Below, in pieces: positions 6,979-53,983 of a DNA stretch of 63,722 nt. Below the pieces are notes generated by a model. It worked only from the letters and a program-made list of their open reading frames with translations, made no database searches and was not told the origin of the DNA. Origin of the DNA: an uncultured Prevotellaceae bacterium (GTDB taxonomy: Bacteria > Bacteroidota > Bacteroidia > Bacteroidales > Bacteroidaceae); contig CACYPF010000014.1 of NCBI GenBank assembly GCA_902776195.1, positions 1 through 63,722 of the forward strand, read 5' to 3'. Position 1 is the first letter of the stretch; the number at the start of each line of letters is the position of its first letter. The position numbers were made by a program, and so were the translations under genes.

Positions 6979-7006
6979 ATTGACAATTGATAATTGACAA
7001 TTGACA
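6979..7006. repeat. Heptamer array, four units of ATTGACA type
   Basis: Four tandem heptamers (three ATTGACA and one ATTGATA) fill almost the whole gap between infB and sufB. It is one of several 4 x 7 nt arrays in this window, each with a different heptamer. Confidence 0.85.
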
Positions 7007-7011
7007 ATTAG

Positions 7012-8457
7012 ATGAGTAATAACAATGAATACGTTCGTCAGGTAGCAGAACAGAAATACGAGTTCGGATTCACGACGGATGTACATACTGAGATTATAGA
7101 GAAAGGGCTGAACGAGGATGTCGTTCGGCTCATCTCTGCTAAGAAAGGGGAGCCCGACTGGATGCTAGCCTTCCGGTTGAAGGCTTTCCGCTATTGGCAA
7201 GAGCAGGAACAACCGACATGGGGTCATGTGCATGTACCTCCTATTGACTATCAGTCAATCTCCTACTATGCCGACCCAATGGCTAAGAAACCGAAGGGTG
7301 ACGGAAAGATAGACCCTGAGTTGGAGAAGACCTTCGATAAATTGGGTATTCCTTTGGAGGAACGTCTGGCATTGAGTGGCAACGTGGCTGTGGATGCCAT
7401 CATGGACTCTGTGTCGGTGAAGACGACTTTCAAGGAGAAACTTTCTGAGTTAGGGGTCATTTTCTGCTCGATAGGTGATGCCATCAAGAATCATCCGGAC
7501 TTAGTACGTGAATATTTGGGTACGGTAGTGCCCTATCGCGATAATTTCTTCGCTGCATTGAACAGTGCAGTGTTTAGTGACGGTTCTTTCGTCTATATCC
7601 CTAAGGGCGTGCGCTGCCCCATGGAGCTGAGCAGTTATTTCCGTATCAATGCCCGCAACACAGGACAGTTTGAGCGCACATTGATTATTGCGGATGATGA
7701 TGCTTATGTGAGTTACTTGGAAGGTTGTACTGCTCCGATGCGAGATGAGAACCAGTTACATGCGGCTATCGTGGAGATTATCGTCAAAGATCGTGCTGAG
7801 GTGAAATACTCCACCGTTCAGAACTGGTACCCTGGAGACGAGAACGGCAAAGGTGGTGTGTTGAATTTAGTAACGAAGCGTGGTGACTTGCGTGGTGTTG
7901 ACTCAAAATTATCATGGACACAGGTGGAGACAGGTAGTGCCATTACATGGAAATACCCCTCCTGCGTGCTACGAGGTGACAACAGTACCGCAGAATTCTA
8001 TTCTGTCGCTGTGACCAACAACTACCAGGAGGCAGACACAGGAACGAAGATGATCCACATGGGTAAGAATACCAAGTCTACAATTATCTCGAAAGGTATC
8101 TCGGCTGGTCATTCCCAGAACTCCTACCGAGGTCTGGTACGTGCCACCTCCAATGCGGACAATGCCCGTAACTATAGCTCATGTGACTCCTTGCTCTTAG
8201 GTTCGGAATGTGGTGCCCATACCTTCCCCTATATGGACATCCACAACGACACAGCCGTGGTGGAGCATGAGGCGACGACCTCGAAAATCAGTGAAGACCA
8301 ACTCTTCTACTGCAACCAACGTGGTATTCCCACCGAACAGGCTGTTGGTCTCATCGTGAATGGCTATGCCAAGGAGGTGCTGAACAAGTTGCCCATGGAG
8401 TTTGCCGTGGAGGCACGTAAGCTATTATCAGTATCATTAGAAGGAACAGTAGGATAA
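7012..8457 (+). CDS. sufB: Fe-S cluster assembly protein SufB
   Basis: 481 residues, normal for SufB. Characteristic stretches are FNSAV-type [37 protein letters not shown], the beta-helix core with YLEGCTAP, and the C-terminal [22 protein letters not shown]. SufB is the scaffold subunit of the SufBC2D complex, on which Fe-S clusters are built in the cytoplasm from sulfur supplied through SufS. It leads the sufB-C-D-S gene run, 3 nt before sufC. No TAnnTTTG box was seen directly upstream, so it may be read through from infB or use a promoter altered by the heptamer array. Confidence 0.97.
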
Positions 8458-8460
8458 TAT

Positions 8461-9210
8461 ATGTTAGAAGTAAGAAACTTACACGCCAAGATTGGCGACA
8501 AAGAGATATTAAGAGGTATCAACCTCACGATCATGGATGGTGAGACCCATGCCATTATGGGACCCAATGGTTCTGGTAAGTCAACCCTCTCGGCAGTGCT
8601 GGTGGGTAATCCTCTCTATGAGGTGACAGACGGAGAGGTTTTCTTCAATGGCAAGGACTTGTTGGAGATGAAACCTGAGGACCGTGCCCATGAGGGGCTG
8701 TTCCTCTCTTTCCAGTATCCAGTGGAGATACCTGGAGTATCAATGACCAATTTCATGAAAGCAGCCATCAACGAGAAACGTAAGTATCAGGGACTTCCAG
8801 AGCTGAAAGCTTCTGATTTCATTAAATTGATGCGTGAGAAACAGAAGATTGTGGAGTTGGATAATAAACTCGCCAACCGTTCTGTCAACGAGGGATTCAG
8901 TGGTGGTGAGAAGAAGCGTAACGAGATTTTCCAGATGGCGATGCTGGAGCCAAAACTCTCCATCCTCGATGAGACGGACTCAGGACTCGATGTGGATGCC
9001 ATGCGAATTGTCGCCGAGGGTGTTAATAAGTTGCGCACCCCAGAGACTTCCTGTATTGTGATTACCCACTACGATCGTCTGCTGGAGATGATACGCCCTG
9101 ATGTGGTACATGTGCTCTATAAAGGACAGATTGTCAAGACGGCAGGTCCAGAGCTTGCCAAAGAGATACAGGAACGTGGTTACGACTGGATTAAGGCGGA
9201 AGTGGAATGA
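8461..9210 (+). CDS. sufC: Fe-S cluster assembly ATPase SufC
   Basis: 249 residues. An ABC-type ATPase: Walker A GPNGSGKST, Q-loop LSFQYPVEIPG, signature NEGFSGGEKKRNEI (the SufC form of LSGGQ), Walker B LSILDETDSGLD and H-loop ITHYDRLL. The DETDSGLDVDA sequence is diagnostic for SufC as opposed to transporter ATPases. It powers cluster assembly on SufB-SufD. It begins 3 nt after sufB and its stop overlaps the sufD start by 4 nt, indicating translational coupling. Confidence 0.98.
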   Translation: MLEVRNLHAKIGDKEILRGINLTIMDGETHAIMGPNGSGKSTLSAVLVGNPLYEVTDGEVFFNGKDLLEMKPEDRAHEGLFLSFQYPVEIPGVSMTNFMKAAINEKRKYQGLPELKASDFIKLMREKQKIVELDNKLANRSVNEGFSGGEKKRNEIFQMAMLEPKLSILDETDSGLDVDAMRIVAEGVNKLRTPETSCIVITHYDRLLEMIRPDVVHVLYKGQIVKTAGPELAKEIQERGYDWIKAEVE

Positions 9211-10532
9211 ATAGTGAGCAGCAATATATAGAACTCTACGAACAAGCTCGTGGGATGATTGTTCAGCATTCGTCTGATGTGATGAATGCCGTGCGTGATA
9301 CCGCTTTTGAGCAGTTCCGTTCCCTTGGTTTCCCCAGTCGGAAAGTGGAGCGGTATAAATATACCGATATGCAGGCGCTCTTTGAACCCGACTACGGTCT
9401 GAACCTGAACCGCCTGGAGATACCGGTCAATCCCTATGATGCGTTCCGCTGTGATGTCCCCAATCTGTCGACCATGCTCTATTTCGTGGTCAATGACGCA
9501 TTCTATTCTAAAGTACTGCCCAAGGGGCATCTTCCAGAAGGTGTCGTCATCGGTTCGCTGAGGGAGTTTGCCACCTCGGAATACTACAACCGCCTTGCCT
9601 CCAAGGATGAGGATGCCCTCACTTCGTTGAATACCATGCTGACACAGGACGGTCTTTACGTCTATGTACCCAAAGGCATTGTGTTGGATAAAGCCATTCA
9701 GGTAATTAATATACTACGTTCGGATGTCGACCTGATGGTCAACCGCCGTGTACTGATTATCGTGGAAGAAGGAGCAGAAGCCAAGTTCCTGTTCTGCGAC
9801 CATGCGGCAGATGATCGTCATTTTCTCACGACTCAGGTCATAGAGGCTTTTGTGGGAGAGAACTCCAAGCTCGACCTCTATTGTCTGGAAGAGACTCATG
9901 CTAAGAATGTTCGGATCAGTAATGTATATATCGACCAGCAGGCAAACAGCCGTGTCAATCACAACGTCATCACGTTGCATAACGGAGTGACACGTAATAA
10001 GCTCGACCTCGAGTTCAATGGCGAGGGTGCCGAGTGTTTCTGTAATGGTTGCGTGATAGCCGACAAAAAGCAGCATGTCGATAATAATACGTTGATTACC
10101 CATCATGTCCCTCATTGTACGAGTCATGAACTGTATAAATATGTACTGAATGATGAGGCTGTGGGTGCTTTCGCTGGTATGGTCTATGTGGCAAAGGATG
10201 CTCAGAAGACATCCTCGCAGATGACTAACCAGAACCTTTGTTCCACCAAGCAGGCGAGGATGTATACGCAGCCGATGCTGGAAATCTATGCAGATGATGT
10301 GAAATGTGCCCATGGCTCTACCGTCGGACAGTTGAACGATGCGGCGATGTTCTATATGCGACAGCGTGGTATACCAGAGAAAGAGGCGCGTCTTCTATTA
10401 CAGAACGCTTTCATCAATGAGGTTATCGACCAGATGGAATTAGAGCCATTGCGTGACCGCCTGCACTACTTGGTTGAGAAACGTTTCCGTGGAGAACTGA
10501 ATAAATGTGAAGGGTGTAAACTCTGTAAATAA
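9207..10532 (+). CDS. sufD: Fe-S cluster assembly protein SufD
   Basis: 441 residues. Paralogue of SufB with the shared C-terminal fold: CAHGSTVGQLNDAAMFYMRQRGIPEKEARLLLQNAF and a C-terminal helical tail ending with three cysteines (CEGCKLCK). The N-terminal helical part (RSLGFPSRKVERYKYTDM) is typical of SufD. It forms the SufB-SufC2-SufD complex. ATGA overlap with sufC. The reading frame runs on to TAA at 10530-10532, one nucleotide before the preferred sufS start. Confidence 0.96.
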   Translation: MNSEQQYIELYEQARGMIVQHSSDVMNAVRDTAFEQFRSLGFPSRKVERYKYTDMQALFEPDYGLNLNRLEIPVNPYDAFRCDVPNLSTMLYFVVNDAFYSKVLPKGHLPEGVVIGSLREFATSEYYNRLASKDEDALTSLNTMLTQDGLYVYVPKGIVLDKAIQVINILRSDVDLMVNRRVLIIVEEGAEAKFLFCDHAADDRHFLTTQVIEAFVGENSKLDLYCLEETHAKNVRISNVYIDQQANSRVNHNVITLHNGVTRNKLDLEFNGEGAECFCNGCVIADKKQHVDNNTLITHHVPHCTSHELYKYVLNDEAVGAFAGMVYVAKDAQKTSSQMTNQNLCSTKQARMYTQPMLEIYADDVKCAHGSTVGQLNDAAMFYMRQRGIPEKEARLLLQNAFINEVIDQMELEPLRDRLHYLVEKRFRGELNKCEGCKLCK

Positions 10533-10533
10533 T

Positions 10534-11757
10534 ATGTATGATATAAATAAGGTACGCGAGGACTTCCCCATTTTGTCAAGGGAGGTATATGGTAAGCCTT
10601 TGGTTTATCTCGATAATGCTGCGACGACGCAAAAGCCACTGTGTGTGTTGGACGCGATGCGAGAGGAATACCTGAATGTGAATGCCAATGTACACCGAGG
10701 TGTTCATTATCTGTCACAGAAGGCAACCGATCTGCATGAGGCGGCACGGGAGAAGGTGCGCCAGTTTATTCATGCTGCCAAGACAGAGGAGATTATCTTC
10801 ACTCGTGGTACGACAGAGGCAATTAATCTCGTGGCAGCTTCTTTCTGCGCGAGTCAGATGAAAGAGGGTGACGAGGTGTTGGTGACTGAGATGGAGCACC
10901 ATTCGAATATCGTGCCTTGGCAGCTGCAAGCACAACAACGAGGTATCATAGTGCGTCACCTGCCTATGACTGATGACGGACGTTTAGTAAGTTGCGATGA
11001 TATCGCTCCATTCCTCACAGAACGTACAAAACTGGTGAGTATCACCCATGTCAGTAATGTGCTGGGAACCATCAACCCTGTGGCTGATATTATCAGGATG
11101 GCTCATGAACGAGGTATTCCCGTCATGGTGGATGGTGCGCAAAGTGCCCCTCACATGGCGATAGACGTTCAGAACATGGATTGTGACTTCTATGCTTTCA
11201 GCGGTCATAAGATGTATGGACCAACGGGGGTTGGTGTGCTGTATGGCAAGGAGGAATGGCTGGAGAAATTGCCACCCTATCAAGGAGGAGGCGAGATGAT
11301 CGACAAGGTGACTTGGGAGAAAACCACTTTTGAGCGTTTGCCCTTTAAGTTTGAGGCGGGGACACCCGACTATGTTGCCACGCACGGACTCGCTACAGCC
11401 ATCGATTATATTCATTCCGTTGGTATTGAGAATATTCAGCAGCATGAACAAGAACTGACCGGCTATTGTATGGAGCAGTTGGAGTCCATCGAGGGTATGA
11501 GGATTTACGGACCACAACAGGCAATCCATAAGGATGCGGTCGTTTCATTCAATGTAGGAGCGATCCATCATCTGGATTTAGGAACGCTTCTTGACCGTCT
11601 GGGCATCGCTGTCCGTACAGGTCATCATTGTGCCCAGCCATTGATGGACCGTTTAGGAATTCAGGGGACAGTACGTGCTTCCTTCGCCCTTTATAATACC
11701 AAGGAAGAGGTGGATATCCTCGTAGCAGGTATTCGCCGGGTCAGCAAAATGTTCTAA
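10534..11757 (+). CDS. sufS: Cysteine desulfurase SufS
   Basis: 407 residues from ATG at 10534. An upstream in-frame ATG at 10507 would overlap sufD by 26 nt and add nine residues not expected for the family, so it was not chosen. The PLP-binding lysine is Lys226 in SGHKMYGPTG, and the active-site cysteine that carries the persulfide is Cys366 in RTGHHCAQP. TRGTTEAINLVA and MEHHSNIVPW are further class V aminotransferase motifs. It takes sulfur from cysteine for the Suf scaffold. No sufE or sufU gene follows; instead a WYL regulator starts 16 nt downstream. Confidence 0.96.
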   Translation: MYDINKVREDFPILSREVYGKPLVYLDNAATTQKPLCVLDAMREEYLNVNANVHRGVHYLSQKATDLHEAAREKVRQFIHAAKTEEIIFTRGTTEAINLVAASFCASQMKEGDEVLVTEMEHHSNIVPWQLQAQQRGIIVRHLPMTDDGRLVSCDDIAPFLTERTKLVSITHVSNVLGTINPVADIIRMAHERGIPVMVDGAQSAPHMAIDVQNMDCDFYAFSGHKMYGPTGVGVLYGKEEWLEKLPPYQGGGEMIDKVTWEKTTFERLPFKFEAGTPDYVATHGLATAIDYIHSVGIENIQQHEQELTGYCMEQLESIEGMRIYGPQQAIHKDAVVSFNVGAIHHLDLGTLLDRLGIAVRTGHHCAQPLMDRLGIQGTVRASFALYNTKEEVDILVAGIRRVSKMF

Positions 11758-11773
11758 AGAGCCTCTTCTTCTG

Positions 11774-12673
11774 ATGCGCCACGATAAGTTAGACAGAGAG
11801 TTGACGCTGATGCTTCTGATGACAGAGAACAGGAGATATACTGTCCAGCAGCTTTGTGAGCGGATGAATATCTCGAAGCGTACCTTATATTATTATCTGG
11901 ACTTCTTCCGTGACATTGGCTTTGTCGTAGAGAAAAGAGGAACGATATATAGTCTTGACAAGAGTTCACCTTTCTTCACGAAACTCTTCCGCAAAGTGCA
12001 TTTCACGGAGGATGAGGCTGTCACCATGCGTCGTATCTTGGAAAGCTCCGGTTCTCAGAGTGCCATGGTGGAGCATCTGAAGCGAAAGCTCGATTCCTTA
12101 TATGATTTGAATATCCTTGCCGATGAGCAGTTGCGTGAGCGGCAGGCTCTTAACCTGAGTGTCATCTATGACGCTATCAAGTACCATCGTAATGTGATTC
12201 TGCATCGTTATTCCTCTCCGCACAGCAATAGTGTGACAGACCGTATCGTGGAACCATTTATGCTGATGAACGATAACAATGAGGTGAGATGCTTTGAATT
12301 GACCAGCGGGATGAACAAGACTTTCAAACTCTCACGCATGGAAAAGGTGGAGTTGTTAGCAGACGGGTGGGAGCATGAGTCGGAACATCGACAGTTTTTC
12401 ACGGATATCTTCATGTTCAGTGCAGAGGAACAGATGCGGGTCACCCTTCTGTTAGGACGCTTGTCCTATAACCTGATGTTGGAGGAATACCCGAAGGCTG
12501 AGGCATATATCACCCCTCAAGACCAGCAGCACTGGCTATTGGAACTCGATGTATGCAACTATGCGGGTATAGGTCGTTTTGTATTAGGACTCTACGAGGA
12601 TATCACCATTATGGGCGACGAGGGCTTTAAGACGTATATACGCCAATATATTGAGAAGATACACCAAATGTGA
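11774..12673 (+). CDS. WYL-domain transcriptional regulator
   Basis: 299 residues. An N-terminal winged helix-turn-helix (about 1-60: TVQQLCERMNISKRTLYYYLDFFRDIGF) is followed by a linker and a WYL-type sensor region (about 130-210: ALNLSVIYDAIKYHRNVILHRY, then NEVRCFELTSGMNKTFKLSRM). WYL proteins are DNA-binding regulators whose barrel domain senses ligands or nucleic acid. It lies 16 nt after sufS on the same strand and is probably co-transcribed with the suf genes. Whether it regulates them is inference. Confidence 0.85.
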   Translation: MRHDKLDRELTLMLLMTENRRYTVQQLCERMNISKRTLYYYLDFFRDIGFVVEKRGTIYSLDKSSPFFTKLFRKVHFTEDEAVTMRRILESSGSQSAMVEHLKRKLDSLYDLNILADEQLRERQALNLSVIYDAIKYHRNVILHRYSSPHSNSVTDRIVEPFMLMNDNNEVRCFELTSGMNKTFKLSRMEKVELLADGWEHESEHRQFFTDIFMFSAEEQMRVTLLLGRLSYNLMLEEYPKAEAYITPQDQQHWLLELDVCNYAGIGRFVLGLYEDITIMGDEGFKTYIRQYIEKIHQM

Positions 12674-12782
12674 ACGGACGTTAATAATTAAAGTATATTA
12701 ACAAAGAAAATCGAAAAGTGAACTTATTGTGCACAGAATAGTTATTCCTTTGCATCGTAGATAACAATAAAAAATATACGAT

Positions 12783-13061
12783 ATGAAAAAGACAATGACT
12801 TTTCAGCACGAGGACAGCCTTCTCATCCTCTTTGCGAAGGCAGTACGTAAACCACTGGCAATGCTTGCAGGTTACTATTCCAAAGTATTAGAGACAGAGA
12901 TTAATCTTCGCCAGACTTTATTATTACTCAATGCCCAACTCGCTTTTTTCTTTACAGTATTCCCTATGTGCTCCCTCTTTCTCCGGGCTCTCTGCATCCT
13001 CTGGCTTTGTGATGCACTGATGAAGTGTAAGAAAGCAGGAGTCGTTCAACGGAAAGGATAG
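12783..13061 (+). CDS. Small hypothetical membrane protein
   Basis: 92 residues, not recognised. A charged N-terminal half (MKKTMTFQHEDSLLILFAKA) is followed by a strongly hydrophobic stretch at about 50-80 (LLLLNAQLAFFFTVFP and SLFLRALCILWLCDALM), room for one or two membrane helices, and a basic tail KCKKAGVVQRKG. A weak -7-like sequence TTCCTTTG lies at about 12748-12755. It stands alone between the WYL regulator and rnhB. Function unknown. Confidence 0.6.
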   Translation: MKKTMTFQHEDSLLILFAKAVRKPLAMLAGYYSKVLETEINLRQTLLLLNAQLAFFFTVFPMCSLFLRALCILWLCDALMKCKKAGVVQRKG

Positions 13062-13079
13062 AGAAAGAGTTCTTTTCTT

Positions 13080-13110
13080 TTTGGTGATTCAAGAAAATTG
13101 TTTACCTTTG
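13080..13110 (+). promoter_or_regulatory. Complete Bacteroidota promoter for rnhB
   Basis: TTTG at 13080-13083, 19-nt spacer, then TACCTTTG at 13103-13110. This matches the -33/-7 consensus of the phylum and lies 23 nt before the rnhB start. Confidence 0.75.
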
Positions 13111-13133
13111 CACGCAGAGATTTGACATAATCT

Positions 13134-13736
13134 ATGCTACAAAGTCATTTTTATGAAGGGAAAATAGAAGCCGGATGCGACGAGGCTGGACGTGGCTGTC
13201 TTGCCGGTAGCGTGTATGCGGCAGCTGTCATCTTTCCTGAGGACTATCAGAATGCGGAGTTAAATGACTCCAAGAAGCTGACGGATAAGCATCGTAAGCA
13301 GTTGCGCGAGATCATCGAGCGTGATGCCACCGCATGGGCTGTGGGAGTCGTCACACCAGAGGAGATTGACAAGATGAATATCCTCAATGCCTCTATCCTC
13401 GCTATGCACCGCGCCCTCGACCAGTTGAAAGTGCGTCCTGAGGCTGTCATTGTGGATGGTAACCGTTTTAAGCCCTATCAGCAGCTACCCCATACTACCA
13501 TTGTCAAAGGTGATGGGAAATACCTTTCTATCGCTGCAGCCTCCATCCTTGCCAAGACCTATCGTGACGACTATATGGACCGTCTTGCAGAGGAATATCC
13601 GCAATACGACTGGCTCTCAAACAAAGGTTATCCCACCAAGAAACACCGGGAGGCGATACGACAGTATGGTATCACCCCTTACCATCGCAAGTCCTTCAAT
13701 ATGCTGGGCGACGGACAATTATCCTTTGATTTCTAA
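13134..13736 (+). CDS. rnhB: Ribonuclease HII
   Basis: 200 residues. The N-terminal GCDEAGRGCLAG carries the catalytic Asp16-Glu17 pair; the central VDGNRF supplies a further catalytic aspartate, and ASILAKTYRDDYM completes the active site. RNase HII removes ribonucleotides embedded in DNA and cuts RNA in RNA-DNA hybrids. The length and motif order match the family. Own promoter; 12 nt before the next gene, which may be co-transcribed. Confidence 0.97.
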   Translation: MLQSHFYEGKIEAGCDEAGRGCLAGSVYAAAVIFPEDYQNAELNDSKKLTDKHRKQLREIIERDATAWAVGVVTPEEIDKMNILNASILAMHRALDQLKVRPEAVIVDGNRFKPYQQLPHTTIVKGDGKYLSIAAASILAKTYRDDYMDRLAEEYPQYDWLSNKGYPTKKHREAIRQYGITPYHRKSFNMLGDGQLSFDF

Positions 13737-13748
13737 AAACTGAATAAT

Positions 13749-15359
13749 ATGACATTACATTGCCTTTTCCTCGCTACCGTAGCATCCCTGCTGAGTCTCT
13801 TCGACCAGAAACAGGATGTGACATCAGCTAACCAATTCTTCCAACAGCTCGACAAAGAGCAGTTTACTGAAAGTAAGATACAGTTTTCTGCCGGCATACC
13901 AGTTGACTCCCTGCAACAGCAGGTGTGGTACTGGGCTGCGGAATGGTTGTATGACCAGCAGCAGTATAAAGAGGCAGAGAAATATGGACTGAAAGCATTA
14001 CCCTTGTTTCATGGGGGAAACGACAGCAAGGCGGACTGCCTGAACCTTCTGGGACTGGTCTATGTACGCATGGGCGACTTCAAGCATGCTGCGGAGTATG
14101 CCAAACAGTGTCTGGACATAGATCTGCGGAGTGGGGATGACGACCGTATCTCGTCGAGTATGAATACGGTGGCAGGCATCTATATGGCTGGATATCAAGC
14201 GAAAGAGGCGGAAAAGTATATCCTTGGGGCTTTGGAACATGCCGGGAAGGTAGATAACCCAGCTCGCAAAGCGGTCATCCTCGGTATGGCATCGGAAATC
14301 TACCATTCCCTTTCTGATGACCAGAAGGCACTTTCTTTCGCAGAACAAGCCTATGAGATAGACTCAAAGTTGAAGCGAGAGCCACAGGCAAGTATCCGAC
14401 TGTCGCAAAAGGGTGCGGCTTTACTCGGTCTGCACCGCTACAAAGAAGCAGAGAATATCTACCGGCAGGTAGCTCCTGTGCTGAAACAAGTGGGTGACTA
14501 CCATTCGTATGGCATAGCCTTGAACCGGCTGGGGACATCGTTGCTCGGTCAGGAACGACAGCAAGAGGCTATACCTTATTATAAAGAGGCTGCCGCTATC
14601 TTCTCAAAGATGGGCGATCTCTATAACGAGATCCATTCGCATCACGGACTCTATGAGAGTTACTGGAAACTGAATCCTGACTCTGCAAAGATAGAACTGG
14701 ACCGTTTCGACCTGTTGAAAGACTCGCTCTATACCCACAGTTCAGCAGAGGCTTTATCACGTTATAATGCAGAGTTTGGTAATGAACAGTTGCAACAGGA
14801 GAATGAGGAGGTGCGTGCAGCTCATCGTAACACCATCCTGATAGCCATCGTAGTCATCTTACTACTTGTCGCACTCGGTTGGTGGTATGTGCGTCGTCTC
14901 CATCGACAGGAGAAAGAGCATATAGAGGCATTGATGCGCGAGATAACCCTGTTGCAGGACCATGGGAACAATTCTGGTGATCCGTCGCTGGCAGACGGCT
15001 GTGATCACCAGAACCGTTCCCATGATCAGATACCCGACGAAGACCGCAGGTTCCTTATGCGTGTTGTCGAGGTGGTTAACGAGGGGATGTCAACGGGACA
15101 GATCAGTGTGGAAAATATCGCCTCCGAACTGAACATGAGTACGCAGACCTTCCGTCGTCGACTGCAGATGACAGCCGGTGAGACTCCCAAAGCTTTCATC
15201 TCGGCTATCCAAATGGAGAAAGCAGGTAAGTTGCTCAAGGAGAACCCAGGTCTCAGCATTCTCGACATCGCCATGCAGTGTGGTTTCGAGGAAGCCAGTT
15301 CCTTCGCCCACACCTTCAAACGTGTCTATGGCGTGTCTCCTTCACAGTATCGCAATTAG
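13749..15359 (+). CDS. Membrane-anchored TPR sensor with AraC-type DNA-binding domain
   Basis: 536 residues. An N-terminal hydrophobic segment is followed by TPR-like helical repeats (about 60-340; for example CLNLLGLVYVRMGDFKHAAE), one transmembrane helix near 360-382 (ILIAIVVILLLVALGWWYV), then a cytoplasmic C-terminal AraC/XylS helix-turn-helix domain (about 435-536: ISVENIASELNMSTQTFRRRL and SILDIAMQCGFEEASSFAHTF). The layout suggests a one-protein transmembrane signal-to-DNA regulator, common in Bacteroidales. The stimulus and targets are unknown. No histidine kinase or receiver domain is present. Confidence 0.85.
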   Translation: MTLHCLFLATVASLLSLFDQKQDVTSANQFFQQLDKEQFTESKIQFSAGIPVDSLQQQVWYWAAEWLYDQQQYKEAEKYGLKALPLFHGGNDSKADCLNLLGLVYVRMGDFKHAAEYAKQCLDIDLRSGDDDRISSSMNTVAGIYMAGYQAKEAEKYILGALEHAGKVDNPARKAVILGMASEIYHSLSDDQKALSFAEQAYEIDSKLKREPQASIRLSQKGAALLGLHRYKEAENIYRQVAPVLKQVGDYHSYGIALNRLGTSLLGQERQQEAIPYYKEAAAIFSKMGDLYNEIHSHHGLYESYWKLNPDSAKIELDRFDLLKDSLYTHSSAEALSRYNAEFGNEQLQQENEEVRAAHRNTILIAIVVILLLVALGWWYVRRLHRQEKEHIEALMREITLLQDHGNNSGDPSLADGCDHQNRSHDQIPDEDRRFLMRVVEVVNEGMSTGQISVENIASELNMSTQTFRRRLQMTAGETPKAFISAIQMEKAGKLLKENPGLSILDIAMQCGFEEASSFAHTFKRVYGVSPSQYRN

Positions 15360-15544: not shown

Positions 15545-15622
15545 ATTTCATTCGTAGGAGCCAAGGAAAGTACCTTAAAAGTTTATTGTAATCGATTGTT
15601 ATAAGCATCCTAATCGGTTGTT

Positions 15623-26716: not shown

Positions 26717-26744
26717 TAATTCTTAATTCCTAATTCCTTATTCC
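26717..26744. repeat. Heptamer array, four units of TAATTCC type
   Basis: Four tandem heptamers (TAATTCT, two TAATTCC, TTATTCC) in the upp-pckA intergenic region, ending 11 nt before the pckA -7 box. Confidence 0.85.
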
Positions 26745-26755
26745 TATTTTCTTTG

Positions 26756-34899: not shown

Positions 34900-34944
34900 A
34901 TCTATAATATCTATAGTTCCTATAGTATCTATAGTTCCTATAAA
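34900..34944. repeat. 9-nt tandem repeat, five units
   Basis: Five contiguous 9-mers alternating ATCTATAGT-like and TCCTATAGT-like sequence between the first two ompH genes. It begins 5 nt after the stop of copy 1. Confidence 0.85.
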
Positions 34945-44378: not shown

Positions 44379-47111
44379 TTATCTCATGATTCTTTTTTTG
44401 CCGTTCTGAATATAAATGCCTTTTGCCGGCTTGCTGACACGGTGTCCTTGAAGGTCATAGAGTGTGGATTCACCGGCTGTATCGGTATTACCGTTGACAG
44501 CATGTATTGCCGTACTGCCACCGTTGAAGGCGAAATGGAAGTCACGTTCCAGACTGATGCCGTCCTCTGTGGCTTTTACCTTGACGGTAAACAGGGTGCT
44601 GGCAGTGGCGGAGGGGGTGACAGTGAGCACGCCGTCTTTCTCATTGACAGCAACACCTGTCGGGGCACTGATGGTGTAGGAGGGATGGGTGTATCCTGCG
44701 AAATAGTCGGCAAGCGTAAGCGTCCCGGTATCGTCAATGCGGAAGTTGGGTACAGCGATCCAGTTCAGGTACTCCTCCAAGTCTGTATAATAGTCTCCGT
44801 CACGGTCTTCATTGTTGTTGGCTATGTCGGGACTGGTTCCTGTCAGTGCCTCAAACCAGTTGGGAATACCATCTTGGTCGGTATCCCACCCTGCCTCACG
44901 CTGTGTGGTGATGATACCCAGTTTCTCAAGGTCGAAACCCTCACAGCCAGCGTCTTCCTCTGAGTCGATAAGTCCTGCTCTTCCTGAGCGGCTTCCCTTG
45001 GTAGAGGTGGTACCTGTCAGCGTCTCATGAACCATGCGCTGGTCATGCAGGTCGAAGAATGGCTGGTTGCAGCCGACATCACTCAGCACATTCTTAAATG
45101 CTGCTTTTGCTGTCTCCATGTTGCCCTCTGGGTTGATAAAGCTGAACGGTGTCGTGGGGAGTGGGTCCCAGTCTACCACCTGTCCGCCAGAGGTGCTGTA
45201 TTTATAGGTGGTTCCTTTCTTGTCTTCCGTCAGGCTGCCGTTGTTCTTCTCCTGTCGGAGGTTACCGTTGACATAGACGCTCTGTGTCCCGGAGCCCGTA
45301 CCTTCTAATTGCAGGTTCATCAGGGTAGAGGTGCTGTTGGCACCCATCTTATAGTAGTTGTTACAGAAGTTCATCTCGTGAGTACCACCGTCTGTGGCTC
45401 GTCCTCCCCAGTTGTATACCACATTATTATATATGTCATGATGTCCGTCATAGGCTCCTTTTCCGTCCAAGCCTCCAGAGATACTCCAGTTACGACCCTC
45501 ACAGTGGGCAAGCAGGTTATGATGGTAAGAGCCAGGCTGTCCGCCCATCTCACCACCACCGATGGTGGCAGCATAGCCATGTCGGGTACCTGCCCCGTAG
45601 TTGGGATGTCCTGCCTGGTTCAAAGCCTCGCTGATGAGGGTATGCTGCAGGGTCAGTCCCTTGGCATTACGACTGCTGAACGCCTCGTCAATCGTCCATG
45701 ATATGGAGCAGTGGTCCATGATGGCATGGTCGTTGCCTGCCATACCCATACCGTCCAGTCCGCTAAGGGTGGTCTCCTCGTATTTGTCTCTGTCTGCCCC
45801 ATAGGCGGCATCGATATCTGCCGACTCCTTGGGTATGACTTTCCCACTGGTGAGCCGCTTGTGTCCCAAGCGCATCCTCATGAAACGGGTGATGCCGTCA
45901 CTCTGCATGCCGAAAGGACAGGTACGGAGCATGATGCCATTGCCGGGGGCGGTCTGACCGGCTATCGTCACATATTTGTCAGCACAGGTCAGACGACTCT
46001 TCAGGGAGATGACTCCTGCCACGTCAAAGACGATGGTACGTGGACCGCTGACCTTCTTGATACCGTAACGGAAAGAACCTTCTATGGGGTTATTGTCGTC
46101 ACCGTTGTCGTCGAGGGTGGTGACATGGTAGACACTGCCGCCACGTCCGCCGATAGCATAACGACCATATCCCTCTGCACCGGGGAAGGCAAGGCGGCGG
46201 GGTTGGAACTGGTATAGCTTACCTTTATACACCTTACCGTCGTTGTCTACCTCATCGACCCGCCACCAGTAGCTCTTCAGTGGTGAGAAACCGGTAGCTG
46301 TATAGTTGCTGGCACTGCCTTCGTATTGGTAGGTGGTGGCTGTCTCCACCTCTTCCTTGTCTGTTCCATAGACCAACCGGTGTGTCTTGGCTATGTCGGC
46401 GGGTAGCCATGAGAAGGTGACACGCCCGTCATCAGCATCCACGTGATAGTCCAGGTGGGCTGGGTAGGGGTCCATGACACCATAGGGGTTAACATCAAAT
46501 TCCAGACCGTTGATCATGATACTGGTGCGGTCGTAACTCTCACCAGTCTTAGGGACAGCGGTATATTTGATGACTACAGGCTGTCCCTCGGTAACGTTAA
46601 ACTCCACATACGAGGTGCCGCACTCTGAGAATTTGGTCTTGCCGGAGCTATGGGAACCTTTGCCGCTTAATACACCGTCAACACTTACCTCCACGTCGGG
46701 ATGGCGTTGGTTGGCATCGGTGTCGTTATGGTAGGCAAGCAGGGAGTGCTGTCCTGCGGAAAGACCGGTAATCGTGAGGGTGATGGCTGTCTTTCCCTCT
46801 TTGATCCATACATAGTTGCCATCCTCCAGATGACAGGCAAAGACACCGTCGCCCAGTAATTTACTTTGTGTGATGAGATTCTTGTTCCAGTTGGATGCTA
46901 AGCCTGTGGCTCCCTCTGCGGCGGCGACAGTGATGGTGACACCATTGTCCAGTGTCTTCTGTTCACTGGCGACACGACCGACAGCCCATGCGGTATATTC
47001 GGGGTCTGTGACTTCTGCCGATTGCCTTCCCGGGAAATCGAAATCAATACTTTGTGCCGTCATGGTGAGGGCGCAAAAGAGACATGCTGTAGTTAATAGT
47101 TTTCTTCTCAT
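44379..47111 (-). CDS. Secreted pectate lyase-like polysaccharide lyase
   Basis: 910 residues from ATG at 47111; upstream in-frame starts lie before the promoter. Signal peptide MRRKLLTTACLFCALTMTAQ. N-terminal beta domains (about 20-250) are followed by a fibronectin-like segment, then the right-handed beta-helix lyase domain (about 305-640: LAFPGAEGYGRYAIGGRGGS, VFDVAGVISLKSRL, ITRFMRMRLGHKRL, DHAIMDHCSISWTIDEAFS, EGRNWSISGG). A C-terminal segment LYDLQGHRVSKPAKGIYIQN resembles a type IX sorting domain. Probably degrades pectin outside the cell. Exact PL family not resolved. Confidence 0.88.
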   Translation of the reverse strand: MRRKLLTTACLFCALTMTAQSIDFDFPGRQSAEVTDPEYTAWAVGRVASEQKTLDNGVTITVAAAEGATGLASNWNKNLITQSKLLGDGVFACHLEDGNYVWIKEGKTAITLTITGLSAGQHSLLAYHNDTDANQRHPDVEVSVDGVLSGKGSHSSGKTKFSECGTSYVEFNVTEGQPVVIKYTAVPKTGESYDRTSIMINGLEFDVNPYGVMDPYPAHLDYHVDADDGRVTFSWLPADIAKTHRLVYGTDKEEVETATTYQYEGSASNYTATGFSPLKSYWWRVDEVDNDGKVYKGKLYQFQPRRLAFPGAEGYGRYAIGGRGGSVYHVTTLDDNGDDNNPIEGSFRYGIKKVSGPRTIVFDVAGVISLKSRLTCADKYVTIAGQTAPGNGIMLRTCPFGMQSDGITRFMRMRLGHKRLTSGKVIPKESADIDAAYGADRDKYEETTLSGLDGMGMAGNDHAIMDHCSISWTIDEAFSSRNAKGLTLQHTLISEALNQAGHPNYGAGTRHGYAATIGGGEMGGQPGSYHHNLLAHCEGRNWSISGGLDGKGAYDGHHDIYNNVVYNWGGRATDGGTHEMNFCNNYYKMGANSTSTLMNLQLEGTGSGTQSVYVNGNLRQEKNNGSLTEDKKGTTYKYSTSGGQVVDWDPLPTTPFSFINPEGNMETAKAAFKNVLSDVGCNQPFFDLHDQRMVHETLTGTTSTKGSRSGRAGLIDSEEDAGCEGFDLEKLGIITTQREAGWDTDQDGIPNWFEALTGTSPDIANNNEDRDGDYYTDLEEYLNWIAVPNFRIDDTGTLTLADYFAGYTHPSYTISAPTGVAVNEKDGVLTVTPSATASTLFTVKVKATEDGISLERDFHFAFNGGSTAIHAVNGNTDTAGESTLYDLQGHRVSKPAKGIYIQNGKKRIMR

Positions 47112-47129
47112 ATGCTGGTTTGTTTTAGT

Positions 47130-47186
47130 TTCTTTTTTTGCCGAGACGGAGTAATTTCGCCATCTGTGATGGCAAAGGTACAAAAA
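47130..47186 (-). repeat. Promoter-hairpin repeat, copy 1 (leader of the lyase gene)
   Basis: 57-nt element nearly identical (about 4 mismatches) to 55499-55554. On the minus strand it contains the -7 box TACCTTTG (47180-47173), a hairpin GCCATC-ACA-GATGGC, then TTACTCCGTCTCGGC and an A-run. It forms the promoter and most of the 5' leader of the pectate lyase gene. Confidence 0.8.
47173..47180 (-). promoter_or_regulatory. -7 box TACCTTTG for the pectate lyase gene
   Basis: Perfect TAnnTTTG inside the repeat; 61 nt from the box to ATG at 47111. Confidence 0.7.
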
Positions 47187-47187
47187 A

Positions 47188-47215
47188 TTCCTAGTTCCTA
47201 GTTCATAATTCATAG
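47188..47215. repeat. Heptamer array, four units of TTCCTAG type
   Basis: Two TTCCTAG units then TTCATAA and TTCATAG, in the divergent promoter region between the lyase and the pseudouridine synthase genes. Confidence 0.85.
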
Positions 47216-47222
47216 TTTTTTG

Positions 47223-47230
47223 TATTTTTG
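47223..47230 (+). promoter_or_regulatory. -7 box TATTTTTG only 8 nt before the pseudouridine synthase start
   Basis: Matches TAnnTTTG on the + strand; ATG at 47239 follows after 8 nt. Confidence 0.6.
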
Positions 47231-47238
47231 CAGAAGAA

Positions 47239-48660
47239 ATGCGCATACATTCCTTATATACCGACATCCCGAAGCCGGAACGGTTCACGTACCCGTTCTG
47301 CTATGAACCGCATCCGTTGTGCCAGCTGGCAGCGAAAGAGGTACAGGAGTATATCGCCAGCCATGAGGTCATCAGGGATGATGCGGATAACGGAAAGATG
47401 TTCGGGGTATTGATCGTGGAATCCCCAGGTGTTTCTCCCCCTCAACAGGGGGAGTCTGAGGGGGTCTTCTTCCTGGCTGCCTATAGCGGGTTGCTGGCTG
47501 GACGCAACGACTGGGACTATTTCGTCCCGCCTGTCTTTGACGCACAACAGCCCGACGGCTATTTCAAGACCAAGGAGCGTGAGATATCTCTCACCTCTCA
47601 CTCCTCACCTCTCACCACTAAAAAAATGTCCCAAGACCTCCAGTCATGGCTCTTCCATCAGTATCAGTTATTGAACGCACGGGGAGAGTCGAAAGACCTG
47701 GTGGACGTATGGCAGGAATACTATTCGCGACCTAAGTTACGTCGGAAATTCCCACTGCCGCCGGGTGGCACGGGGGACTGTTGTGCACCGAAACTATTGC
47801 AGTATGCCTATCAGCAGGGACTCAAACCTATCTGTATGGCGGAGTTCTGGTGGGGACAGCCGACAAAGGAGGAGCTGCGCCGGCATCTGAACTATTACCC
47901 TGCTTGTCGTGGAAAGTGTAAGCCAATCCTGACATGGATGCTGCAGGGCTTGGAGGTAGACCCTGACCCGGAGGCGCTGGGCTTCCAGCACATGGAGTTA
48001 CCTGTTGTCTATGAGGATGACGCTATCGTTGTCGTCGACAAACCCAGTGGTATGCTGTCTGTACCGGGACGTATCGAGGAATACAGTGTGGCGACGGTGA
48101 TGCGACAGCGTTACCCCGACTGTGTCATAGCCCATCGGTTGGATATGGGTACCAGTGGCTTGCTGATCGTGGCAAAAACAATGGAGGCATATCACCCGTT
48201 GCAGGAGCAGTTCATCCGTCACCAGGTGCGTAAGAAATATATAGCATTGCTGGAAAGTACCGCACTCTCCTCAGAAAGAAATTCTTCACTCTTCACTCTT
48301 CACTCTTCACTTAAATCAGGCACCATTTCCCTGCCTTTACGTCCAGACCCTATGAACCGCCCCCGTCAGGTGGTGGATATGGAGCATGGCAAACGTGCCG
48401 TCACAGACTACGAGTTTCTCTCACCTCTTACCTCTCACCTATCACCTCTTCAATTAGTCGCCCTCTACCCCCAGACAGGACGCACCCACCAGTTGCGCAT
48501 CCACTGTGCCCATCCCGACGGCTTGGGCTGTCCCATCAAGGGTGACGAACTCTACGGCACCAAGGCTGACCGCCTCTATCTCCACGCCTCAGAGATATGG
48601 TTCCGACACCCCATCACTGGCGATGAGATGCACCTCGTATCGCCCTCTCCCTTCTTATAA
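47239..48660 (+). CDS. RluA-family pseudouridine synthase with repeat-derived insertions
   Basis: 473 residues. The catalytic domain (about 250-473) shows DAIVVVDKPSGMLSVPGR, the catalytic Asp302 in IAHRLDMGTSGLL, QVRKKYIALL, PQTGRTHQLRIH and DELYG. An N-terminal domain (about 1-245) with a Trp/Tyr-rich segment is typical of the larger Bacteroidota RluA members. It isomerises uridines in rRNA or tRNA; the target site is unknown. Four stretches derive from repeats: a palindromic element at 47435-47472 and heptamer arrays at 47589, 48285 and 48419, adding residues such as SPPQQGESEG, LTSHSSPLTT, SSLFTLHSSL and LTSHLSPL. The frame stays open through all four. Confidence 0.9.
   Translation: MRIHSLYTDIPKPERFTYPFCYEPHPLCQLAAKEVQEYIASHEVIRDDADNGKMFGVLIVESPGVSPPQQGESEGVFFLAAYSGLLAGRNDWDYFVPPVFDAQQPDGYFKTKEREISLTSHSSPLTTKKMSQDLQSWLFHQYQLLNARGESKDLVDVWQEYYSRPKLRRKFPLPPGGTGDCCAPKLLQYAYQQGLKPICMAEFWWGQPTKEELRRHLNYYPACRGKCKPILTWMLQGLEVDPDPEALGFQHMELPVVYEDDAIVVVDKPSGMLSVPGRIEEYSVATVMRQRYPDCVIAHRLDMGTSGLLIVAKTMEAYHPLQEQFIRHQVRKKYIALLESTALSSERNSSLFTLHSSLKSGTISLPLRPDPMNRPRQVVDMEHGKRAVTDYEFLSPLTSHLSPLQLVALYPQTGRTHQLRIHCAHPDGLGCPIKGDELYGTKADRLYLHASEIWFRHPITGDEMHLVSPSPFL
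47435..47472 (+). repeat. Palindromic repeat inside the pseudouridine synthase ORF
   Basis: CTCCCCCT paired with AGGGGGAG, then a GAGGGGGTCTTCTT tail. Closely resembles the intergenic element at 48715-48750 just past the end of the same gene. Confidence 0.75.
47589..47616 (+). repeat. Heptamer array inside the pseudouridine synthase ORF (TCTCACC type)
   Basis: Four heptamers: two TCTCACC, one TCTCACT, one CCTCACC. Encodes a Ser/Thr/Leu-rich linker. Confidence 0.85.
48285..48312 (+). repeat. Heptamer array inside the pseudouridine synthase ORF (TTCACTC type)
   Basis: Three TTCACTC units and one TTCACTT. Nearly the same array occurs at 53524-53551. Confidence 0.85.
48419..48446 (+). repeat. 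Heptamer array inside the pseudouridine synthase ORF (TCTCACC type, second)
   Basis: Two TCTCACC units plus TCTTACC and TATCACC. Encodes LTSHLSP-like sequence just before the conserved VALYPQTGRTH motif. Confidence 0.85.
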
Positions 48661-51448: not shown

Positions 51449-51487
51449 AAATGAGAAATGACTCATTTCTCATTTCTTTCATTTCTC
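51449..51487. repeat. Inverted/tandem CTCATTT array at the dusB 3' end
   Basis: AAATGAG units face CTCATTT units, forming a palindrome, and further CTCATTT-like heptamers follow. The dusB stop codon (51479-51481) and its last codons lie within the array. Confidence 0.75.
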
Positions 51488-52432
51488 ATTTAAATACTCC
51501 CTGCATTCCTCCAGAATCCTTGTCAGTTCCTCCACTGTCTCTGCCCGTAGCATCGCAATGCGCGTCTGGCGGAAATTAGGAATTCCTTTGAAAACAGGCG
51601 ATGCCGCCAGGTGGCGACGGGTATGCAGAATACCCCGATACTCATCAATGCGTTCGACATTGATGCGTAATTGTTCTTCCAACACATCTATTTTCTCGTC
51701 GAGGGTCAATTCCTTCCTACTGAATATCCAAGGGCATCCGAAGGTGGCGCGCCCTATCATCACTGCATCTACGCCGTAAGTATCGAAAGCACGGTCGGCA
51801 TCTTCCAATGACTTAATATCACCATTACCGATGATAGGGATATGGATGCGGGGGTTCCGCTTCACCTCACCTATCAGTGTCCAGTCAGCATTACCCGTAT
51901 ACATTTGGGCACGAGTCCTGCCGTGGATTGTCAGCGCCTGTATGCCACAGTCCTGCAACTGCTCCGCCAAGTCGGTGATGATCAGCTGTTCCGCATTCCA
52001 TCCCAGTCGTGTCTTCACCGTGACAGGCAGTTTGACGGCATCCACCACCTTCCGGGTGATCTCCAGCATCTTCGGGATATTCTGCAGCATCCCAGCACCG
52101 GCACCCTTTCCCGCCACCTTCTTCACGGGGCATCCGAAATTCAGGTCGATGACATCAGGGTGTGCCTGTTCCACGATACGTGCCGCCTCCACCATCGCGT
52201 CCACGTCCCGACCATATATCTGGATACCCACGGGACGCTCCTCGTCGGCAATCGTCAGTTTCTGCACCGTCGATTTCACATCTCTTACCAGTGCCTCCGC
52301 CGATACGAACTCCGTATACACCATTGCCGCCCCGAACCGCTTGCACAGCATCCGGAACCCGATATCCGTCACGTCTTCCATCGGTGCCAGGAACACCGGG
52401 CGTTCTCCATATTCTATATTTCCTATCTTCAT
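51479..52432 (-). CDS. dusB: tRNA-dihydrouridine synthase (DusB type)
   Basis: 317 residues on the minus strand. FMN-binding TIM barrel: VFLAPMEDVTDIGFRMLCKR, catalytic Cys101 in LNFGCPVKKVAGKGAG, TVKTRLGW, LTIHGRTRAQMYTG, PIIGNGDIKS and VMIGRATFGCPWIF. It reduces uridines in tRNA D-loops. The DusB assignment rests on the overall match. Its last residues (NEK and the stop) are encoded by a repeat array. It is 6 nt downstream of dprA. Confidence 0.93.
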   Translation of the reverse strand: MKIGNIEYGERPVFLAPMEDVTDIGFRMLCKRFGAAMVYTEFVSAEALVRDVKSTVQKLTIADEERPVGIQIYGRDVDAMVEAARIVEQAHPDVIDLNFGCPVKKVAGKGAGAGMLQNIPKMLEITRKVVDAVKLPVTVKTRLGWNAEQLIITDLAEQLQDCGIQALTIHGRTRAQMYTGNADWTLIGEVKRNPRIHIPIIGNGDIKSLEDADRAFDTYGVDAVMIGRATFGCPWIFSRKELTLDEKIDVLEEQLRINVERIDEYRGILHTRRHLAASPVFKGIPNFRQTRIAMLRAETVEELTRILEECREYLNEK

Positions 52433-52438: not shown

Positions 52439-53521
52439 TTAATTTACCAAATGATAGTTTCCTCCCGCATACGCTTTCACGATCCCTTTCATCTCCAGTT
52501 GGAACAGCAGTCCCGACAGTTGTCCCACAGGAATATTCGTCCTCACGCTCAGCATGTTCAGTTGTAAGTCATTCGTCTGTCGCAGCGCTTCCACCACGGC
52601 ACGCTCCTCCTCGGTGAGCTCAGGAAACAGTTCCCCCTCCCTCAGGTTTAATGTTTCAGGTTTCAGGTTTAATGTTTCAGGGTTCCATCCCATCGCCTTC
52701 ATGAAGTCCTCCGCCGACGTGATGAGTGCCGCCGTGTTATTCTGTATCATCCTGTTGCATCCCTCCGAGTACGGCATCCCCACCGCTCCGGGGAAGGCAA
52801 ACACGTCACGTCCATACTCTTGGGCGATGCGACAGGTAATCAGACCGCCCCCTTTGTACGCACTCTCCACCAAGATGGTAGCGTCCGACATCCCCGCCAC
52901 GATACGGTTCCGCTGCCGGAAATTATTAGGCAATGCCTGTGTCTGACTCATATATTCTGTCAGCAGTCCCCCGTGACTGACCATTGTGGCTGCTGTGTCA
53001 CGGTGGCGGTGCGGGTAAATCTGGTCCAGTCCATGGGCAAGGACACCCACCGTCTCAAACCCGTTTTCCAGTGCGTTACGGTGTGCATGGATATCCACTC
53101 CGTATGCCAGTCCGCTGACAATCAGCACGTCAGGGCACAGTTGTTTCAGGTCACTGATAAAGTGTCGGATGAGATCCTGTCCGTAGGTAGTACACTGCCG
53201 TGTCCCCACGATGTTGATGACATACTGTTGGTTCAAGTCCGCCGTTCCCTTGTAATATAATATAATAGGAGCGTCGACACACTCACGGAGCCGTCTGGGA
53301 TAGTCAGCATCATTCAAGGTCAGTACCCTGATATGGCTTTTCTCCACGAATGCCATCTCCGCCTCTGCCCTGCGCAGTGCCTCCTCCCAGTCGAAACGGT
53401 CCCGATATTCCTCATACACCGCCCAGGCACTGCCCATCGCCCTGTACAGCTGCAGCGTGACGGTATGGTTCACCCCCGTCAGCCGTGTCAATGCCATCGT
53501 ATATAACTCTTCGCTAACCAT
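52439..53521 (-). CDS. dprA: DNA-processing protein DprA with heptamer-derived insertion
   Basis: 360 residues on the minus strand. An N-terminal helical domain, then the Rossmann-like DNA_processg_A core (about 80-290): VNIVGTRQCTTYGQDL, VSGLAYGVDIHAHRNALENG, GVLAHGLDQIYPHRHRD, NRIVAGMSDATILVE and FAFPGAVGMPYSEGCNRMI. A C-terminal winged helix (about 300-360) follows. DprA loads RecA on incoming single-stranded DNA during transformation. Between the core and the winged helix, six heptamers (52643-52684) encode a repeated PETLNLK-type linker, exactly 14 codons. Confidence 0.93.
   Translation of the reverse strand: MVSEELYTMALTRLTGVNHTVTLQLYRAMGSAWAVYEEYRDRFDWEEALRRAEAEMAFVEKSHIRVLTLNDADYPRRLRECVDAPIILYYKGTADLNQQYVINIVGTRQCTTYGQDLIRHFISDLKQLCPDVLIVSGLAYGVDIHAHRNALENGFETVGVLAHGLDQIYPHRHRDTAATMVSHGGLLTEYMSQTQALPNNFRQRNRIVAGMSDATILVESAYKGGGLITCRIAQEYGRDVFAFPGAVGMPYSEGCNRMIQNNTAALITSAEDFMKAMGWNPETLNLKPETLNLREGELFPELTEEERAVVEALRQTNDLQLNMLSVRTNIPVGQLSGLLFQLEMKGIVKAYAGGNYHLVN
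52643..52684 (-). repeat. Six-unit heptamer array inside dprA
   Basis: Six contiguous heptamers (CAGGTTT and AATGTTT variants on the + strand), 42 nt, so it fits the reading frame exactly and encodes two copies of PETLNL. Confidence 0.85.
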
Positions 53522-53523
53522 TC

Positions 53524-53551
53524 TTCATTCTTCACTCTTCACTCTTCACTT
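53524..53551. repeat. Heptamer array, TTCACTC type, between dprA and the thioesterase gene
   Basis: TTCATTC, two TTCACTC, TTCACTT. It begins 2 nt before the dprA start codon side and supplies the TGA stop (53546-53548) of the thioesterase gene. Confidence 0.85.
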
Positions 53552-53953
53552 ATTCAAGTACGGTGCAAACGCCTTGTCATACTCCTCGCTCTCCCCCAGT
53601 CTGCCATTAACCAGACACACCAGCATGATTTTCCCCTTGAAGCATATCGCCTCATCCGAGGCACGGTAGATATCCTGGTGGAAGATATACTTAACCCCAT
53701 CCTTCTCCAGCCACAGCCGTGATATAAACTCATCGTCACAGCGCAGCGGTGCCTTATATTGCAGTTCCATGCGTGCCACCACTGCGTCAATCCCACGACT
53801 ATGCATCTCCGCGAAGCTCAGTCCGCAGTGTTTCAGGAACAAGTGGCGTGTATGCTCCGTATAATGCAGATAATTCGCGTTATTCACTATTCCCTCGATG
53901 TCACACTCGTAGTCACGTACCTCCATCCGGGCTTCAAAAACGTAGTTTCTCAT
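53546..53953 (-). CDS. Acyl-CoA thioesterase, hot-dog fold (YbgC/4HBT type)
   Basis: 135 residues on the minus strand. RDYECDIEGIVNNANYLHYT (catalytic Asp18) matches the 4HBT/YbgC active site; FLKHCGLSFAEMHSRGIDAV and LQYKAPLRCDDEFI complete the fold. It hydrolyses small acyl-CoA thioesters; the natural substrate is unknown. Stop codon supplied by a heptamer array. 20 nt downstream of the DUF2851 gene. Confidence 0.88.
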   Translation of the reverse strand: MRNYVFEARMEVRDYECDIEGIVNNANYLHYTEHTRHLFLKHCGLSFAEMHSRGIDAVVARMELQYKAPLRCDDEFISRLWLEKDGVKYIFHQDIYRASDEAICFKGKIMLVCLVNGRLGESEEYDKAFAPYLNK

Positions 53954-53955
53954 AT

Positions 53956-53983
53956 TTTATTATTTACTTTTTATTATTTATTT
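53956..53983. repeat. Heptamer array, TTTATTA type, at the DUF2851 gene end
   Basis: TTTATTA, TTTACTT, TTTATTA, TTTATTT. It supplies the DUF2851 stop codon (53974-53976) and its last codons. Confidence 0.85.

Follow-up and report, generated by a model that had tools for sequence, protein, structure and literature searches.

Short tandem arrays of 7-nt units recur in a 63,722-nt stretch of DNA from an uncultured Prevotellaceae bacterium (assembly GCA_902776195.1, contig CACYPF010000014.1, positions 1 to 63,722; hereafter the window), both between genes and within them. Our analysis indicates that these arrays are probably the arms, mostly orphaned, of an operon-resident family of elements that encode a PF05635 protein and resemble the intervening sequence (IVS) of 23S rRNA. 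As we reconstruct it, a complete element would comprise, on the left, an arm with roughly four units of 7 nt, then the PF05635 gene and, on the right, an inverted copy of that arm (with units of 7, 8 or 9 nt elsewhere), and would sit sense-oriented from the stop codon of one gene to the start codon of the next. Such an element is probably widespread but hardly described, and has the look of a mobile one. An initial annotation of the window had reported eight arrays of four heptamers, each locus with a different and freely chosen unit, and had proposed a process that writes 7-nt units to a set length. Its observation is borne out in part and its interpretation holds in part.

The best relatives of the window's DprA come from Prevotella and Prevotellaceae assemblies, several of them named after ruminants. 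The nearest relative is isolate RUG037 (hereafter G040), with 91.5% identity over 7.5 kb of the window and 76-84% (window 9000-15358), 88% and 94-98% over further stretches.

Heptamer arrays exceed chance and have a preferred length

All eight arrays of the initial annotation are present in the window, and Tandem Repeats Finder (TRF) lists 8/8. A stricter period-7 scan (score cut-off of at least 13) returned seven arrays, namely six of these eight and one in dprA; the two below the cut-off, 47589-47616 and 53956-53983, have TRF scores of 44 and 40, respectively. The shuffled control that the annotation had called for, here 50 first-order Markov simulations, gave 0 arrays compared with 7 in the window. 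Tandem repetition is thus beyond chance, as it is in long simple sequence repeats (SSRs) of the slippage type.

Across unit lengths, a 463,722-bp sample of this genome contained 31 arrays of period 7, none of periods 3-6, 12 or 13, and 4, 6, 1 and 2 of periods 8, 9, 10 and 11. Periods 14 (20 arrays) and 21 (7 arrays) are both multiples of 7; periods 22 (13 arrays) and 18 (9 arrays) were likewise raised. TRF also lists a 22-nt tandem repeat of 3.7 copies at window 15622-15703 and an A/T-rich tandem repeat of 9/18 nt at window 34900-34943. Doublets of TTCACTC with at most 1 mismatch occur at 35 (overlapping) positions genome-wide, compared with 4 for the reversed pattern. Elsewhere, 38 Prevotella-type loci of one search held 75 period-7 arrays in 720,111 bp, and six Flavobacteriales, Bacteroides and Pseudanabaena loci of the same search held none in 125,459 bp.

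In 565,983 bp of this genome, 30 of the 55 period-7 arrays of score at least 9 fall within 4.0-4.7 units; 19 lie below that range and 6 above it, so the peak is no artefact of the threshold. The constant copy number claimed earlier largely holds in this genome; other Prevotella show a longer tail. The supposed freedom of the unit did not survive closer analysis: TCTCACC and TTCACTC are both found at two places in the window, 13/38 arrays of the genome sample belong to two unit families, and the units form genome-specific families, one with near-fixed borders and two matching the arms of PF05635 elements. In the GAGTGAA type, an outer border AAGTGAA and an inner border GAAT are kept in 11/13 copies listed, corresponding to 9/10 distinct sites; two of the ten are arms of a PF05635 element, and one of the nine border-keeping sites has three units instead of four.

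Inverted heptamer arrays flank PF05635 genes

This genome has two PF05635 genes above cut-off, both with 4 x 7 arms, of GAGTGAA units in one case and, as inverted arrays of four units, of GAGGTGA in the other. One of the two proteins matches the solved chain 2rld_A (E 5.8e-27). The best ungapped arms of the two elements measure 26 and 42 nt, and in the predicted RNA of both the arms are paired around the gene (z -9.3 and -4.3). In both elements the sense strand of the left arm is rich in purines and has stop codons in each reading frame. Near a third, sub-threshold PF05635 match no inverted arrays were seen by eye.

PF05635 matches occurred in 175/200 genomes of a genus sample, with up to 15 per genome, and in 157/198 genomes of a phylum sample; the loci analyzed from each were the roughly 30 best-scoring matches per search, with no random draw. 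Our test set for inverted arms comprised the two genes of this genome and the 30 best-scoring genus loci, of which 28/32 have both flanks (contig ends cut the locus at L188, L190, L192 and L201). An inverted flanking repeat of score at least 14 accompanies 20/28 PF05635 genes compared with 2/1002 same-size control open reading frames (ORFs), and one of score at least 12 accompanies 24/28 compared with 14/1002; the top-scoring control, a gene at L094, is itself a PF05635 gene. When the comparison was made over 58 distinct PF05635 genes, a gene's own arms reached at least 14 in 42/58, as opposed to 10/343 when arms were swapped between elements. Phylum-sample controls at the same cut-off gave 2/120 (position-shifted) and 10/232 (arm-swapped), the latter being raised because related genomes share arm sequences. 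Across genomes the arms are, as judged by eye, tandem arrays of 7-, 8- or 9-nt units that differ from genome to genome.

Several further PF05635 loci deserve mention. In G134, two PF05635 genes are 99.5% identical over 1070 bp, within a larger duplication that lacks element borders. Another PF05635 gene of the G040 assembly (L344, G052:C32:700-2700) has long compound arms in which GAGTTTA/GAGTGGA units are broken by GCGCAAGCGC motifs; its site was not found in our genome. At L178 (1060-1950), clusters of TTCTAGAA repeats surround a weak PF05635-like ORF. Near this weak match lies sequence similar to dispersed pieces at L094:16256-16691 (about 180 and 100 nt, with ATTTGATTTAC palindromes), which have more than 30 matches across G040, some of these in both orientations.

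Elements and lone arrays alternate in operon spacers

The placement of the elements is strongly oriented. Leaving aside elements with arm score below 12, duplicates and those lacking a neighbour on either side, 45/46 lie between two called protein-coding genes with all three genes on one strand; the sole exception to co-direction is one of the two near-identical genes of G134. As a baseline, both neighbours share the strand for 203/340 genes of this genome sample. An arm ends at most 35 nt from the upstream gene in 36/46 elements and from the downstream gene in 36/46. In the phylum sample 26/30 loci are co-directional on both sides, 2 are not and 2 could not be assigned. Given this sense position between co-directional genes, the PF05635 gene probably relies on the operon promoter.

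Arrays as a class are also found inside genes. In this genome sample 23 of 40 lie in called genes, which cover 86% of the sequence, and 17 between them; these counts are approximate, because our home-made hexamer gene caller missed a gene at L089 (about 12-13 kb) and over-extended an ORF at window 44379-47288. Within genes the purine-rich strand is opposite the coding strand in 18/23 arrays, and in the main families it is the purine-rich strand that carries stops.

The spacer between pta and ackA shows both forms at one site. In this genome it holds about 490 bp absent from G040, which has a 28-nt degenerate heptamer array instead; the insert is a PF05635 gene with inverted GAGTGAA arrays at its ends, bordered by AAGTGAA/GAAT. 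We surveyed this spacer in 21 genomes (our own, G040, G075 and 18 more, mostly closest matches; G052 is the same assembly as G040 with the same spacer and was counted once). A PF05635 element is present in 6 (spacers of 497-632 bp), a lone array in 9 and an unrelated inverted-repeat element in 5, and the spacer of G006 (L343) could not be parsed; the 6/21 is no rate, because G070, G004 and G075 were picked for a known PF05635 gene beside ackA. The nine lone arrays are 28-38 nt long, have a best period of 7 (6) or 8 (3) and use at least six different units. The survey thus indicates that lone array and complete element alternate at a fixed site, with the unit changing. The unrelated elements (L327, L328, L331, L336 and L339; 5/21 genomes) measure 128-190 bp and have inverted C-rich/G-rich ends, CCTCCC...GGGAGG.

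At pta-ackA and near L176, alleles differ by exchange of the spacer and not by an interruption of it. G040 has a gene-less form with both arms at L249 near 4181; between the corresponding two genes of this genome lies a lone AATTGAC array. The spacer swap at L249 near 4144-4290 (reverse strand) relative to L176:60-110 alters the initial codons of the transporter gene that follows. An element of about 64 nt with AATTGAY units at L087:13050-13113 lies between divergent genes and recurs at many G040 places in both orientations.

Orphan arrays share units with the elements

Of the other arrays in this genome, 13/38 have precisely the units of its two elements, compared with 5/140 arrays in other Prevotella (Fisher p 1.2e-6). 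Over 38 stretches around PF05635 genes, 20/90 orphan arrays have a 9-mer in common with arms from their own stretch, against a mean of 4.7 and a maximum of 17 in 2000 permutations; some of these stretches belong to a single genome, and the "orphans" may include arms of elements that were missed. Array density follows PF05635 copy number (Spearman 0.70, 20 genomes). Once stretches shorter than 9 kb were dropped, genomes with no copy had 4.7 arrays per 100 kb and those with at least seven copies 14.0 (p=0.003; 15/20 and 16/20 stretches kept), a contrast that resides in period 7 (5 vs 35 arrays).

Alternative explanations for the arrays

The arrays could be ordinary long SSRs made by replication slippage, the polymerase footprint favouring units of 7 nt, an account we consider unlikely. 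It would explain four units as the smallest in-frame gain (one plus three), because only 21-nt changes survive in genes. Passages of two earlier studies describe heptamers as the commonest long bacterial SSR in most surveyed genomes and give the polymerase-footprint idea (PMC4679880, PMC4692102), and the tail of longer arrays in other Prevotella also suits it. To compare orthologous sites, 72 arrays of this genome and G040 were tried and 25 sites matched (flank identity 86-99.8%). Length changes of 21 or 42 nt at 3/25 sites are what slippage would produce, and five others differ by -24, -6, -1, +3 and +27; but 17/25 sites are exactly equal in length in this one close genome pair, and units sometimes switch all together while length stays constant. 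At L171:11884 all four units read GAGTTGC and in the G040 counterpart GAGTTGA, and at L089:9409 TTAGACC/TCAGACC stands opposite TCTCACC in G040. These matched sites favour the earlier remark that plain slippage fits badly. Also weighing against slippage are identical units recurring at many loci, the lone arrays of the pta-ackA spacers, PF05635 genes with inverted arms of 7-, 8- and 9-nt units, and the AAGTGAA...GAAT borders kept at nine sites, two of them element arms. Given these shared GAGTGAA borders, the preferred length and the joint unit changes, independent slippage at random seeds would not be expected to give this pattern.

Less probable again is that the arrays are functional intercistronic spacers, selected for translation coupling or spacing, and that PF05635 genes happen to enter such sites. 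The stop-to-start arrays of similar length and varied unit at 9/21 pta-ackA spacers are what one would expect on this account. Against it, our rough gene calls place roughly half of the arrays or more within genes (23/40), unrelated inverted-repeat elements occupy 5/21 of the same spacers, and the matched inverted arms are left unexplained. Even with a source assembly that is a draft in 42 contigs (93.55% complete), chance, low-complexity composition or assembly artefact is scarcely credible in view of the simulations, the arrays common to the second assembly, G040, and the period-specific excess.

A number of observations weigh against tracing the arrays to PF05635 elements. As many as 19/38 other arrays of this genome are at least two changes away from the units of its two elements, with 6/38 differing by a single change, and GAGTTGA, the family second in abundance (6/38 arrays), has no PF05635 element here. 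Period-8 arrays are as many in the zero-copy as in the high-copy group (6 and 5), the zero-copy genome G018 nevertheless has arrays, and the copy-number tests are uncorrected for relatedness. The arm association is itself incomplete: 8/28 genes score below 14 and only 11/30 best-scoring phylum loci reach it, all tested loci being best-scoring matches and no random set. The sense orientation could be due to selection acting on genes that have no promoter of their own. No enzyme of mobility was identified, no transposase search having been made. Finally, no site was seen that was cleanly empty and bore a target duplication; the other allele mostly has another array, including at pta-ackA, where it has its own.

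A proposed model for PF05635 elements and putative orphan arms

The two arms are predicted to pair in RNA, enclosing the gene in a long stem of the kind found in the 23S rRNA IVS, and RNase III may process the elements within operon transcripts. The elements would be mobile, and orphan arms would derive from elements rather than the reverse, either as remnants after the gene and one arm were lost or by independent spread. Operon spacers would keep such arms or gain them by spread, and so would protein loops, there mostly in the orientation free of stops. Whole spacers may be exchanged for others with new units and similar length, and units may be homogenised through copying between hairpin arms or between dispersed arrays. 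Copying between arms fits the G040 copy of the L176 element, because the order of unit variants is identical in both of its arms.

A wider proposal, which we put forward tentatively and regard as rather doubtful, is that PF05635 elements are phylum-wide RNA-level mobile elements that enter operon transcripts sense-oriented between cistrons and are excised via the arm stem. A linked process, perhaps hairpin-templated repair or copying, would write arms of about four units and rewrite orphan arms in spacers and protein loops. Of the process envisaged in the initial annotation, the preferred length stands; that a dedicated enzyme writes the units is conjecture.

Other candidates were considered. 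A reverse transcriptase as writer of the units was rejected, as no RVT_1 match was found in this genome (93.55% complete). For a phage origin, the single segment queried (window:48200-48600) had no near match among phage records. Rfam at gathering scores returned one tRNA and nothing else on the window.

Relationship to known repeats and elements

The closest known system is the 23S rRNA IVS, for which a portion of one report gives a length of 428 nt, terminal repeats that form a 28-bp stem and a cut by RNase III (PMC4990558); such elements are called selfish or possibly mobile. Cleavage of the IVS by RNase III is mentioned elsewhere too, in an excerpt that describes PF05635 as functionally uncharacterised (PMC11270868). 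The elements here are alike in their S23p/PF05635 ORF (both proteins of this genome score above cut-off), similar size, stem-capable terminal inverted repeats around that ORF and probable position within a transcript. They differ in lying between protein-coding genes (45/46) rather than in a 23S rRNA helix, often several per genome, and in having arms made of tandem 7-9-nt units, with orphan arms dispersed through the genome.

Long heptameric SSRs were described by Mrazek et al. 2007, cited here through two later papers; examples are GGGAATC in Xanthomonas and TAACTGA in Beggiatoaceae, Cyanobacteria and five Bacteroidetes (PMC4679880, PMC4692102). Like ours, these are dispersed tandem heptamers, often intergenic, and the Xanthomonas arrays most often have four units (same papers). 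Unlike them, the present arrays are linked to a protein gene, which they flank as inverted arms, form genome-specific families and have near-fixed borders in one family.

Miniature inverted-repeat transposable elements (MITEs) and REP doublets forming hairpins (REPINs) are short, dispersed, gene-less inverted repeats that depend on a gene elsewhere. The orphan arms are similarly short, dispersed and gene-less but are tandem arrays, and target duplication was not seen (transposases were not searched for). PF05635 has chiefly been known from insertions in rRNA and through its kinship with Avd. The resemblance to Avd of diversity-generating retroelements is noted in part of PMC10053308; unlike those systems, this genome yielded no RVT_1 reverse transcriptase, as stated above. 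The domain is also named in a figure legend of PMC10910872. No link of PF05635 to operon spacers or heptamer arrays turned up among the top-ranked entries of literature listings that covered few subscription papers.

Arrays of the window

The arrays of the window are collected in Table 1. The array at 51449, which the initial annotation had called inverted, is indeed an inverted pair (51449-51490). The annotation's six-unit dprA array is a 21-nt unit of three heptamers repeated about twice (52642-52685); the dprA linkers of L001, L007 and L035 carry a quite different heptamer array, again in a 21-nt three-unit layout. In the pseudouridine-synthase-family gene, G040 has a longer TCTCAAC array in the linker corresponding to 47588..47616, and the gene of G007 has no array matching 48283..48314 and a 24-nt gap at the place of 48418..48449. 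The hexamer caller placed 47188..47217 within its over-long ORF, on the opposite strand.

Table 1. Heptamer arrays of the window, with position, strand and genomic context.
Feature	Coordinates	Strand	Context
Orphan array AATTGAC x4.6	6978..7009	+	Fills IF-2 stop (gene end 6976) to SufBD-family start (7012)
Orphan array GGAATTA x4.3	26717..26746	-	Intergenic, upstream of PEP carboxykinase gene; G040 identical
Array TTCCTAG/TTCATAG x4.3	47188..47217	-	Directly upstream of pseudouridine-synthase-family gene 47239-48660
Array TCTCACC x4	47588..47616	-	In frame, variable linker of pseudouridine-synthase-family gene (47239-48660)
Array ATTC(TTCACTC)3TTCACTT	48283..48314	-	Variable loop of pseudouridine-synthase-family gene; GAGTGAA-family borders
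Array TCTCACC x4.3	48418..48449	-	Variable loop of pseudouridine-synthase-family gene
AAATGAG arrays as an inverted pair (two arms, gene absent)	51449..51491	.	One-direction form in G040
Array of 21-nt unit (3 x 7)	52642..52685	-	Linker of dprA (gene 52439-53521)
Array AAGTGAA(GARTGAA)3GAAT	53519..53551	-	Exactly separates thioesterase-family gene and dprA
Weak A/T-rich array TTTATTA x4	53956..53983	-	Junction of DUF2851 gene and thioesterase-family gene

Apart from the arrays, the lower identity to G040 at window 9000-15358 (76-84%) contrasts with 95% for about 15.7-28.9 kb, which matches another contig, and from its sequence the block looks like one of different ancestry.

Implications

If orphan arms of PF05635 elements do underlie these arrays, bacterial heptamer repeats that have so far been catalogued without a settled explanation would have a cause, and PF05635, a common family, would have a setting. 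The elements would also predict at which places the operon spacers and protein loops of these bacteria change most rapidly, and the nature and movement of IVS elements would become testable outside rRNA.

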